Below are positions 4,265-8,531 of a stretch of 64,000 nucleotides of DNA, in pieces (the stretch's first letter is position 1; each line of letters opens with the position of its first letter). Source of the DNA: Pseudobdellovibrionaceae bacterium (GTDB taxonomy: Bacteria; Bdellovibrionota; Bdellovibrionia; Bdellovibrionales; Bdellovibrionaceae). A model generated the notes under the pieces. That model was not told where the DNA came from and searched no databases. It was given only the letters and a program-made list of their open reading frames with translations. The stretch lies in assembly GCA_019637875.1 (NCBI GenBank), contig JAHBUW010000017.1, positions 1 through 64,000 of the forward strand, in the 5' to 3' direction. The position numbers were made by a program, and so were the translations under genes.

Positions 4265-4494
4265 TCATTTGCTGTGCGCTTGCGATTTCCGCTTTTGAAT
4301 GCTCGCGTTCACGCATTGACTTTGTTTTTTCCCTCGGAAAACCTTGAAAGCGCGGCCTTTCGGTTCGTCGCCGTTTCCTGTCAAGACCTTTATCGGGCGT
4401 GCTTCAGACCTCAGCATTGACACTGGACCTCTCAAAATATTTTGCGAAAAGTTTTTTGACTCAGCGGTGGAATTCAGACACCGTTAACTTGTTG
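4265..4494. other. Non-coding stretch between the radical SAM gene and the nrdA leader
   Basis: No gene-like frame is present. It is richer in A+T than its neighbours. It contains a TTGACA at 4417-4422 followed by the 12-bp palindrome CAAAATATTTTG at 4433-4444, and a TTGACT at 4456-4461. These could be parts of the nrdA promoter; no well-spaced -10 box is evident, so I do not call one. Confidence 0.4.
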
Positions 4495-4825
4495 ACCGAT
4501 CGGCCTTATTGATGAGGCCACTGAGGACAACCACTAGATCTAGGGTAAAGCCCACGGATCTAGGGGCTCTTCAGGATTCCAGGACGGAGCCCAACACGAG
4601 ACGCACGAAGTGCCACCCTCGGCCAAACAAATTAGGGGACTCGACAAACCGGCTCGCCGGAGGTCTAGTCACCTCCTTCGTTCTGGCAGAGGCCAACTCT
4701 TTGTCTGCGGACTCGCGAGTCTTAGGCCAATACAGAAGAGACATTATAGACCACGAACTGAACGGATTTTTGAAACCGTCTGAACGTGAGAGGGGAAAAG
4801 ACTTGGGACCAAATCCCAGGCCTTA
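4495..4825 (+). ncRNA. Candidate structured RNA or long 5' leader upstream of nrdA
   Basis: This non-coding block can fold into a series of clean local hairpins: GGCCT/AGGCC (4502-4506 with 4515-4519), GGGCTC/GAGCCC (4564-4569 with 4587-4592), CCGG/CCGG (4649-4652 with 4657-4660), GGAGGT/ACCTCC (4659-4664 with 4671-4676), GACT/AGTC closing CGCG (4710-4721), a bulged ACGG/CCGT stem (4762-4779), and CTTGGGA/TCCCAGG (4802-4808 with 4814-4820). The 4649 and 4659 stems share two bases and so compete. GATCTAGGG is repeated 20 bp apart (4537, 4557). I do not recognise a known family. It could be a regulatory leader for ribonucleotide reductase or an independent RNA. A 105-codon reading frame through it has no coding character. 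Confidence 0.4.
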
Positions 4826-4910
4826 AGGGGCTCCTTTCGCTTCAAACGTGCTTTGAAGAGCTTAAACCAGCGCCGGAGACATCACCGGTCTGGACAATGA
4901 GGGGGAACTC
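4826..4910 (+). promoter_or_regulatory. nrdA immediate leader with nested hairpin and ribosome site
   Basis: CCAG (4867-4870) pairs with CTGG (4890-4893) and, inside it, CCGG (4873-4876) with CCGG (4885-4888). The ribosome site GAGGGGGAACTC lies directly after, in front of ATG 4911. The hairpin could tune nrdA translation. Confidence 0.4.
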
Positions 4911-7499
4911 ATGAAGACGACCACGGAAGCCAACGGAAATGGCTACACCCAAGGATATCTCTCGAACGAATTCGAAGGCGGCGCTCATCAGCCGCACGTC
5001 ATGCGCGTCCGCAAGCGTGACGGCAGCCTCGAACCCGTCGACGTCACCAAGATCGTCGAACGCGTCACCAGCTGCTGCCAGGGCTTGGCCCATGTCGACC
5101 CGCTTCGCGTGGCCACCAAGGCCATCAGCGGCCTGTACGACGGCGCCACCACCAAGGAACTCGACAACCTTTGCATCCAAACCGCATCGCTTTTGATCGG
5201 TGAAGAACCCGAGTACTCGCGCCTGGCTTCGCGCCTTTTGACCATGTACATCGACGAAGAAGTCCGCTCGCAGAAGATCAAGTCGTTCGCCGACTCGATG
5301 CTATACGGATTCAACAACCAGCTCATCGCGGAAGCGACTTATAAATTCGTCGAGAAAAACAAAGCGGCCCTCTCCGCGGCGATCGAGCCTTTCCGTACGG
5401 ATCGTTTCGAGTACTTCGGTCTGCGCACGATCTATGATCGTTATCTTCTGAAAAACCCGAAGAGCCGTCAGGTCTTCGAGACGCCCCAATACTTCTTCAT
5501 GCGCGTCGCTTGCGGCCTGGCCGAAAACGTCGAAGAGGCGATCGAGTTCTACCGTTTGATCTCGAGCCACGACTACCTCGCGTCGACCCCGACCCTTTTC
5601 AACTCGGGAACCCTGCGTCCCCAGATGTCGTCGTGCTATCTCTTGGATTCGCCCGAAGACGATTTGAAATCGATCTACGACAAATACACCGACATCGCGA
5701 TGCTTTCGAAGTTCGCGGGCGGGATCGGCGTCGCTTACTCGCGCGTTCGTGCGCGCGGCTCGCTCATCAAAGGCACCAACGGTCACTCGAACGGGATCGT
5801 GCCTTGGCTGAAAACTTTGGATTCGTCGGTCGCGGCCGTGAACCAAGGCGGAAAGCGCAAGGGCGCCGCTTGTATTTACCTTGAAACTTGGCACGCCGAC
5901 ATCGAGGAGTTCCTTGAGCTTCGCGACAACACCGGTGACGAGGCGAAACGCACGCACAACCTGAACCTGGCGAACTGGACTCCGGATCTTTTCATGAAGC
6001 GCGTGAAGGGCGACGAGATGTGGTCTTTGTTCGACCCCCGTGTCGTTCCGCACTTCGTGGATCTTTACGGCCCCGCCTTCGAAGAGGCCTTCGTTGAAGC
6101 GGAAAAACAAAACCTTTTCGTGAAACAGATCAAAGCCCGCGACCTCTACTCGCGGATGATGAAGACCCTCGCCCAGACCGGAAACGGCTGGATGACCTTC
6201 AAAGATCCGTCGAACATGAAGGCGAACCAAACCGGCAAGCCCGAAAACGTGATCCACTTGTCGAATCTTTGCACCGAGATCCTGGAAGTGACCTCGAACA
6301 AAGAGACCGCGGTTTGCAACCTGGGTTCGGTGAACTTGGGCCGTCACGTGAACGGCAACCGTTTCGATTTCGAAAAACTCGCGCGCACCGTCCGGACCGC
6401 GGTGAAGTATCTCGACCGCGTGGTCGACATCAACTTCTACCCGATCGGCACCGCGGAAGATTCGAACTCGCGCTGGCGCCCGGTGGGTCTGGGACTCATG
6501 GGTCTGCAAGATGCTTTCTTCCAACTGCGTCTGCCGTTCGACTCCGCGGAAGCGCGCGAGCTTTCGGCCCGCGTCCAGGAAGAGATCTATTACAACGCGC
6601 TTCTGACCAGCTGCGAGCTCGCCGAAAAGCACGGCCCGCACAAGTCGTTCGAAGACACGCGCGCGGCGCAAGGCATGCTTCAGTTCGACCTGTGGGGCGT
6701 GACGCCTTCGCAGCCCGAGCGTTGGAATACCCTCCGTGAGCGCATCAAGAAATCGGGCGTCCGCAACTCGCTTTTGATCGCGATCGCGCCCACCGCGACC
6801 ATCGCGTCCATCGTGGGCTGCTACGAAGCGACCGAGCCGCAGATCTCGAACCTCTTCAAACGCGAGACCCTGTCGGGTGAATTCCTGCAGATCAACCGTT
6901 ACCTGGTTTCGGAATTGAAGGCCCTGGGCCTCTGGAACGAAGACCTCCGCAACGAGATCAAACTCGCCGAAGGTTCGATCCAGAACATCGATTCGATCCC
7001 GCAGGAGCTCAAAGAGATCTACCGCACGGTGTGGGAAGTCCCCATGCGTTCGTTGATCGACATGGGCGCCGAGCGCGGCGCGTACATCGATCAGAGCCAA
7101 AGCCTGAACTTGTTCATTGAATCGCCGACCATCGGAAAATTGTCGTCGATGTATATGTACGCTTGGGAAAAAGGCCTGAAGACGACTTATTACCTCCGCT
7201 CGCGTCCCGCGACCTCCATCGCGAAGACCACGACGAAGAAATCCTCGACGGGAGTGGCGGCCAACACCGCGGCGCCCGCGATGGATGCGGCTTCCGCATC
7301 AACCGCCCCCGGCACCCGCGAAGAGCTCGCGGCGGCGGTCGCGGCAAAAGCAGAGGCGAAAGCCGCGACCGGCAACGTCAACGGCGGTGAATCGGAAATT
7401 CCCGCGATGGCCGCTTCGACCGAGAAGAAAACCTACTCGGAGTCGGAAGTCATCGCCTGCTCGCTGGACAATCCCGAAGCCTGCGAAGCGTGTCAGTAA
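4911..7499 (+). CDS. nrdA: Ribonucleoside-diphosphate reductase alpha subunit, class Ia
   Basis: 862 residues; reduces ribonucleoside diphosphates to deoxy forms for DNA synthesis. The N-terminal ~110 residues look like an ATP cone (V-R-K-R-D-G-S near residue 33), the allosteric site. Catalytic residues are in place: Cys242 (S-S-C-Y-L-L-D) and Cys469 (V-C-N-L-G-S-V) for the reducible pair, and Asn452, Cys454 and Glu456 (N-L-C-T-E-I) at the radical site. Tyr760-Tyr761 (T-T-Y-Y-L-R-S) are the radical-transfer pair. After the core comes an Ala/Thr/Lys-rich linker of about 70 residues, then the shuttle cysteines Cys850, Cys858 and Cys861 in the extreme C-terminus. nrdB follows after 33 bp. A long structured leader precedes it. 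Confidence 0.97.
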   Translation: MKTTTEANGNGYTQGYLSNEFEGGAHQPHVMRVRKRDGSLEPVDVTKIVERVTSCCQGLAHVDPLRVATKAISGLYDGATTKELDNLCIQTASLLIGEEPEYSRLASRLLTMYIDEEVRSQKIKSFADSMLYGFNNQLIAEATYKFVEKNKAALSAAIEPFRTDRFEYFGLRTIYDRYLLKNPKSRQVFETPQYFFMRVACGLAENVEEAIEFYRLISSHDYLASTPTLFNSGTLRPQMSSCYLLDSPEDDLKSIYDKYTDIAMLSKFAGGIGVAYSRVRARGSLIKGTNGHSNGIVPWLKTLDSSVAAVNQGGKRKGAACIYLETWHADIEEFLELRDNTGDEAKRTHNLNLANWTPDLFMKRVKGDEMWSLFDPRVVPHFVDLYGPAFEEAFVEAEKQNLFVKQIKARDLYSRMMKTLAQTGNGWMTFKDPSNMKANQTGKPENVIHLSNLCTEILEVTSNKETAVCNLGSVNLGRHVNGNRFDFEKLARTVRTAVKYLDRVVDINFYPIGTAEDSNSRWRPVGLGLMGLQDAFFQLRLPFDSAEARELSARVQEEIYYNALLTSCELAEKHGPHKSFEDTRAAQGMLQFDLWGVTPSQPERWNTLRERIKKSGVRNSLLIAIAPTATIASIVGCYEATEPQISNLFKRETLSGEFLQINRYLVSELKALGLWNEDLRNEIKLAEGSIQNIDSIPQELKEIYRTVWEVPMRSLIDMGAERGAYIDQSQSLNLFIESPTIGKLSSMYMYAWEKGLKTTYYLRSRPATSIAKTTTKKSSTGVAANTAAPAMDAASASTAPGTREELAAAVAAKAEAKAATGNVNGGESEIPAMAASTEKKTYSESEVIACSLDNPEACEACQ

Positions 7500-7532: not shown

Positions 7533-8531
7533 ATGATTTTAGATCCTGGCTTTAACCTGACCCTACGCCCGATGAAATATCCGGTTTTCTACGAGATGTA
7601 CAAAAACGGCATCAAGAACACCTGGACCGTGGACGAAATCGATTTCTCGACGGATCTGGCCGATCTGCAGGGAAAGATGAAACCCTCGGAAAAACACCTG
7701 ATCAACCGCTTGGTCGCGTTCTTCGCGACCGGCGACTCGATCGTGGGCAACAACTTGGTCCTGAACCTTTACAAGCACGTGAACTCGCCCGAGGCCCGTC
7801 TGTACCTGTCGCGCCAACTCTACGAGGAAGCGCTTCACGTTCAGTTCTACCTGACGCTTCTCGACAACTATATTCCCCACCCCGACGAGCGCGCGAAAGC
7901 CTTCGCGGCGGTGGACAATATTCCGTCGATCCAGAAAAAAGCGCAGTTCTGCTTCAAGTGGATGGATTCGATCAACGATCTGGAGACTCTCCGGAGTCCC
8001 GAAGACCGTCGTAAGTTCATCATGAACATGACCTGCTTCGCTTCGTGTATCGAAGGAATGTTCTTCTTCGCGGCGTTCGCCTACGTTTACTTCCTGCGTT
8101 CGAAAGGCCTTCTGCAGGGGCTCGCGAGCGGAACGAACTGGGTCTTCCGCGACGAAAGCATGCACATCGCCTTCGCGAACGAAGTCATCCAGACCGCCCG
8201 CCGCGAAGAGCCCACGCTTTTCAATGCGCAGATGTCGGATATGGTCGTCCAGATGATGGAAGACGCCATCGATTGCGAAATGGGTTTCGCGGCGGACATC
8301 CTCGAACACGGGATCGCGGGCCTGTCGATCAAAGACATGCGTCAGTACCTGGAGTTCGTGGCCGATCAACGCCTGGAAGCGCTGAATATCGCTCCCCGTT
8401 TCCACTCGAAGAATCCGTTCCCCTTCATGGAACTGCAAGACATGCAAGAGCTCGCGAATTTCTTCGAGCGTCGCGTGTCCGCTTACCAGATGGGTGTCTC
8501 GGGCGCCGTTTCGTTCGACGAAAGCTTCTAA
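7533..8531 (+). CDS. nrdB: Ribonucleoside-diphosphate reductase beta subunit, class Ia
   Basis: 332 residues with a clean ribosome site (TTGAGGAAAAT) before ATG 7533. It houses the diiron-tyrosyl radical that activates NrdA. All ligands can be placed: Asp68 (G-D-S), Glu99 and His102 (E-A-L-H), radical Tyr106 four residues on, Glu174 (I-E-G-M-F-F), Glu208 and His211 (D-E-S-M-H). The presence of Tyr106 argues for a classical tyrosyl-radical enzyme rather than the Tyr-less Mn/Fe type Ic. The C-terminus ends S-F-D-E-S-F, the tail that docks on the alpha subunit. Forms an operon with nrdA and probably with the next gene 15 bp downstream. Confidence 0.97.
   Translation: MILDPGFNLTLRPMKYPVFYEMYKNGIKNTWTVDEIDFSTDLADLQGKMKPSEKHLINRLVAFFATGDSIVGNNLVLNLYKHVNSPEARLYLSRQLYEEALHVQFYLTLLDNYIPHPDERAKAFAAVDNIPSIQKKAQFCFKWMDSINDLETLRSPEDRRKFIMNMTCFASCIEGMFFFAAFAYVYFLRSKGLLQGLASGTNWVFRDESMHIAFANEVIQTARREEPTLFNAQMSDMVVQMMEDAIDCEMGFAADILEHGIAGLSIKDMRQYLEFVADQRLEALNIAPRFHSKNPFPFMELQDMQELANFFERRVSAYQMGVSGAVSFDESF

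Follow-up and report, generated by a model that had tools for sequence, protein, structure and literature searches.

We report that the gap before nrdA contains a conserved core that is likely the promoter-proximal control region of the nrdAB genes, with NrdR binding and the transcription start site predicted from sequence. The gap is 646 bp long (radical-SAM gene end, 4264; nrdA start, 4911) and lies in the window, meaning the whole 64,000-nucleotide stretch analysed. It contains about 50 strongly conserved bases (4499 to 4551), a conserved hairpin (4577 to 4589), and about 300 non-conserved bases. Its main "stem" is best read as a DNA operator palindrome, predicted for NrdR. The initial annotation, which had proposed a structured RNA of about 400 nt, is partly supported: it was right about a constrained non-coding element tied to nrdA and wrong about the extent and main nature of that element, as conservation is limited to about 70 bases. 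Bdellovibrio-type predators copy their DNA only during growth in prey, which makes on/off switching of ribonucleotide reductase central to the predator life cycle; the analysis names a concrete, testable switch, composed of a predicted NrdR operator and two conserved leader hairpins. The features of the region (window coordinates) are as follows.

4456 to 4484, plus strand: putative sigma-70-type promoter, TTGACT-N17-CACCGT, with a weak -10 match.
4499 to 4514, no strand assigned: degenerate candidate NrdR box 1, ATCGGCCTTATTGATG, the best other position, at offset -32 from box 2.
4502 to 4519, plus strand: hairpin P1, GGCCUUA-UUGA-UGAGGCC, with covariation; its 5' arm overlaps box 1.
4531 to 4546, no strand assigned: predicted NrdR box 2 (P2), CCACTAGATCTAGGGT, with the invariant core C-T-A-x-A-T-x-T-A-G and a score of 10.2.
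4537 to 4565, plus strand: window-specific duplication of GATCTAGGG, 9 bp at 20-bp spacing (copies at 4537 to 4545 and 4557 to 4565).
4577 to 4589, plus strand: hairpin P3, UUCC-AGGAC-GGAG, pentaloop AGRAY, in 33 of 54 leaders with compensatory changes.
4590 to 4898, plus strand: remaining leader sequence of nrdA, specific to the lineage; it contains hairpins at 4802 to 4820, 4840 to 4858, and 4867 to 4893, and its local folding is ordinary.
4899 to 4905, plus strand: nrdA Shine-Dalgarno sequence GAGGGGG, read from the sequence, predicted to be more accessible than in shuffled leaders.
4911 to 7499, plus strand: nrdA, encoding the large subunit of a class I ribonucleotide reductase, which includes an ATP-cone (Pfam PF02867, PF00317, and PF03477).
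7533 to 8531, plus strand: nrdB, small subunit (Pfam PF00268).

Folding of 4495 to 4893 was stronger than that of dinucleotide shuffles (z = -3.4; repeat run, z = -3.6), as the initial annotation of a hairpin-dense region would have it; 40 other 399-nt pieces of the window had a mean z of -0.4, with one piece as low (-3.6). The reverse strand also gave z = -3.4, consistent with palindromes. Piece by piece, z against shuffles was -3.5 (4499 to 4570), +0.4 (4570 to 4660), +1.3 (4690 to 4800), and -1.8 (4790 to 4893). The folding signal is real and is concentrated in the first 70 to 100 bases. Since the excess is local to 4499 to 4570 and folding is ordinary in the other pieces, the "eight clean local stems" described earlier were an overstatement. 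The best explanation of much of the apparent hairpin density is a palindromic operator seen on a single strand; inspected by eye on that strand alone, such an operator is easily mistaken for structured RNA.

The fixed bases of the palindrome (C-x-C-T-A-x-A-T-x-T-A-G) are the same as the NrdR box core, and box 2 of the window matches at every invariant NrdR column, scoring 10.2 of a possible 12.6 (shuffled 99% quantile, 7.7) against the consensus acaCwAtATaTwGtgt. Averaged over 13 genera, the best position for a second box, self-overlaps aside, was at offset -32, equivalent to a 16-bp spacer; in the window, box 2 and the degenerate candidate box 1 likewise lie 32 bp apart centre to centre with a 16-bp spacer. 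Sister lineages carry a plainer second box, such as ACGCAACTGGTAGTGT at -31 in genus g6, and box pairs 31 to 32 bp apart were found in L131, L142, L141, and L144. The window's genome encodes an NrdR protein (G000; TIGR00244 match, E value of 3.7e-56), as do 35 of the 40 relatives' genomes searched. The 16-bp NrdR palindrome, its conserved G-C pairs, and its paired arrangement are documented (PMC9110341, PMC12176259, PMC12051234); NrdR binds box pairs with an optimum spacer of 15 to 17 bp (PMC12051234), and the documented architecture comprises pairs at 15 to 16 bp overlapping the start site (PMC12051234, PMC9110341, PMC12176259). Two observations count against an operator. Box 1 of the window scores only 5.1; the C conserved at position 4 is missing from it, as is one of two G-C pairs important for binding (PMC9110341). 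The right flank of box 2 has been altered by the local duplication. This duplication is what had been described as a 20-bp direct repeat; the repeated unit is 9 bp (GATCTAGGG), and its second copy lacks a counterpart in the aligned boxes of relatives. The left arm of box 2 can pair with that copy in competition with the box-2 palindrome (stems at 4534 to 4563), so the two competing stems noticed earlier are real.

A DNA search with the whole gap against 60 relatives returned short pieces only, four of them at window positions 4499 to 4552, all between the same two genes. We located nrdA in 62 of 66 family genomes and retrieved the upstream regions; the box-2 palindrome precedes nrdA in 54 of the 61 readable ones, most of which carry the complete module, in which an imperfect hairpin around CTTATTGATGAG is followed after 10 to 11 bases by ACCACTAGATCTAGTGGT or ACCCCTAGATATAGGGGT. 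A covariance model of both boxes and P1 (R1), which scores the window at 58.5 bits, matched 45 of 144 class genomes. All of these belong to the window's family, and in each the strong match falls at nrdA; the few additional matches were either marginal or faint echoes of the palindrome on the reverse strand. By this comparison, the leader region is under constraint and tied to nrdA. The gap might instead produce a stand-alone small RNA, as had also been suggested, given its dense predicted hairpins and terminator-like sites at 4659 to 4676 and 4819 to 4832, but such sites are near shuffle expectation (3 versus 1.3), the downstream part is not conserved, and conservation is seen only as an element preceding nrdA. 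Because the strong R1 match always lies just before nrdA, a stand-alone RNA is unsupported, and we regard it as highly improbable.

Within the preferred reading, a promoter-proximal control region, P1 and P3 covary across relatives and therefore probably matter as RNA. Three of six P1 pairs have changed on both sides with pairing kept (34 gapless relatives, with relatedness remaining in the controls). P1 and P2 together are 88.7% paired, compared with at most 49% when the partner columns are shifted by one to three positions. Longer P1 loops (the 17-mers, and L060 with its six additional bases) leave the stem intact, and the distance from its 5' arm to box 2 stays constant, which is what would be expected of a hairpin tied to a spaced operator. 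P1 is not centred on box 1, and the operator therefore cannot account for its 3' arm. In the window, P1 folded best among 200 shuffles; across 47 distinct sequences, the energy-only test was modest (P ≤ 0.05 in 17, versus 13% of control pieces), and it is covariation that carries the argument for P1. Genera g6 and g10 have a weak P1 or none. Close to the transcript's predicted 5' end, P1 could serve as a stability hairpin.

An open frame of 104 codons without a stop (ATG at 4512 to 4826) starts inside the P1 loop, and the gap could in principle code for a small protein of 104 amino acids. It has no Pfam match, and relatives sharing the ATG hit an early stop while others have ACG. This frame was rejected as lacking a family match and conservation, and coding is hardly credible here.

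P3 was first spotted as (C/T)AG(G/A)A(C/T)GG, with 13 copies in 10 kb of leader sequence versus 2 in 60 kb of upstream sequence. In the alignment, 98% of cells are paired, and two of four pairs show compensatory changes (A-U/U-A exchanges). Generalised to any stem of at least 4 pairs with loop AGRAY, P3 occurs in 33 of 54 leaders across six genera, starting 23 to 131 bases downstream of box 2; none of the other 63 loop classes compared was seen in more than 2 leaders. AGRAY hairpins number three per 64 kb in the window, both strands counted. P3 looks like a protein-binding loop. In L142, a more distant Bdellovibrionota genome, a hairpin of 8 bp whose loop is AGGAC sits some 250 bases ahead of nrdA, downstream of tandem NrdR boxes; going by this hairpin, P3 may reach beyond the window's family.

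One candidate partner is CsrA, which would bind P1 and P3 and control nrdA translation. The csrA gene is present in 40 of 40 genomes, and GGA occurs in the P3 loop and in some P1 and P5 loops (P5 is described below), but the leaders show no GGA enrichment (253 observed versus 275 expected), and P3 with AGAAY or P1 with UUGA, neither containing GGA, is found in many relatives. A CsrA-regulated leader was rejected on the enrichment count, and we consider CsrA control very unlikely. In a speculative reading that is more likely wrong than right, P1 and P3 together might be a new motif in the leaders of Bdellovibrio-type predators, recognised by the transcription machinery or by an RNA-binding protein; a single stretch of 90 bases would then exert two controls on nrdAB, one through NrdR at the DNA and the other through a second factor at the nascent RNA. 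If true, the bases common to box 1 and P1 would leave the two controls unable to evolve independently.

A TTG..N17..xAxxxT arrangement lies 71 to 77 bp before box 2 in most relatives; the corresponding window promoter (4456 to 4484) was not called by a consensus scanner. From this promoter, RNA polymerase would start nrdA transcription at about 4491, just upstream of box 1 and box 2, and with plentiful dATP, an ATP/dATP-loaded NrdR tetramer would grip both boxes and block nrdAB transcription. The mechanism of NrdR repression is established in other bacteria. When transcribed, the leader would retain two short hairpins, P3 with its AGRAY loop and P1, part of which coincides with box 1; these hairpins perhaps protect the 5' end or bind protein. 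The suggestion of a leader sensing nucleotide status thus survives in altered form: the leader carries RNA elements and plausibly responds to nucleotide status, through the protein NrdR on DNA and not through RNA sensing.

Downstream of P3, no conserved counterpart of 4590 to 4898 was found in relatives. The nested hairpin annotated beside the ribosome site (4867 to 4893) does fold; a counterpart in relatives was not detected. Positions 4678 to 4703 match L006:756-781 at 25 of 26 bases; this G026 sequence precedes a small gene that is unrelated; the 19-mer GGCAGAGGCCAACTCTTTG from this match is absent from all other genomes among the 66 of the family, and the match is possibly chance.

At the end of the leader, the genus Bdellovibrio (g7) has a GAGGG-loop hairpin P4, in which 9 of 10 pairs covary, and, after a near-invariant U7 tract facing the Shine-Dalgarno sequence, a hairpin P5 (L024:2221-2309, minus strand, and 22 other g7 nrdA leaders). 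A covariance model of this 3' module (R2) also matched leaders of g10, g3, g13, and g2. Predicted Shine-Dalgarno accessibility was below that of shuffled leaders in seven of seven Bdellovibrio leaders tested; sequestration as a family trait was rejected, since it is confined to that genus with no trend across genera. The P4/P5 module is a possible attenuator or translational switch and arguably a better RNA candidate than the window. One Bdellovibrio-genus genome has a second, divergent NrdA (54% identity) on a different contig (G076:C2:136173-136871). The module matched no Rfam family, and both it and the AGRAY hairpin, being outside Rfam families, would be new small motifs. We found no publication on the Bdellovibrio nrdA leader; a Bdellovibrio RNA-seq paper, with start sites mapped in attack phase only, does not mention nrd (PMC3627812).

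These Bdellovibrio hairpins bear on whether a cis-acting leader RNA (attenuator, translational switch, or riboswitch-like element) over most of 4495 to 4893 controls nrdA by refolding. P4 and the U7 tract make leader-level control plausible in the family, P1 and P3 covary, and alternative stems exist at 4534 to 4563. Set against this, R2 gave no match to the window, where the covarying 3' hairpins (GAGGG loop, U tract, and P5) are absent; folding of 4570 to 4800 is no better than that of shuffles; and no leader k-mer common to the whole family rises above shuffles. Sequestration of the ribosome site was not seen in the window, its Shine-Dalgarno sequence being free by predicted accessibility (0.62 versus 0.36 in shuffled leaders). 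At the gathering threshold, Rfam matched nothing in the window (best sub-threshold hit, rydB; E value of 0.94), in line with the earlier remark that no known riboswitch or RNA family was recognised, and Rfam 15 matched none of the relatives' leaders. Refolding control over this span is, on balance, unlikely, and the promoter-proximal control region remains the preferred reading.

RNA leaders are known for ribonucleotide reductase genes, namely, cobalamin and 2'-deoxyguanosine riboswitches and the nrdJ motif. These likewise lie upstream of such genes, whereas the window has no aptamer-sized conserved fold and no Rfam 15 match. Compared with 5' stabilising hairpins of bacterial mRNAs such as ompA, P1 is likewise a short stem near the predicted 5' end and differs in overlapping an operator box as well. 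Many P3 members share a short stem and GGA loop with CsrA/RsmA hairpin sites; P3 differs from such sites in its frequent AGAAY variants and in the lack of GGA enrichment. The predicted box pair of the window comes closest to the tandem NrdR boxes of E. coli, Streptomyces coelicolor, and Listeria (PMC12051234, PMC12176259, PMC9110341), two 16-bp palindromes with a 15- to 16-bp spacer, adjoining the start of a ribonucleotide reductase operon in a genome that encodes NrdR. Unlike in those systems, the window has a degenerate box 1 that overlaps a covarying hairpin and a box 2 of which part has been duplicated, and both boxes apparently lie inside the transcript.
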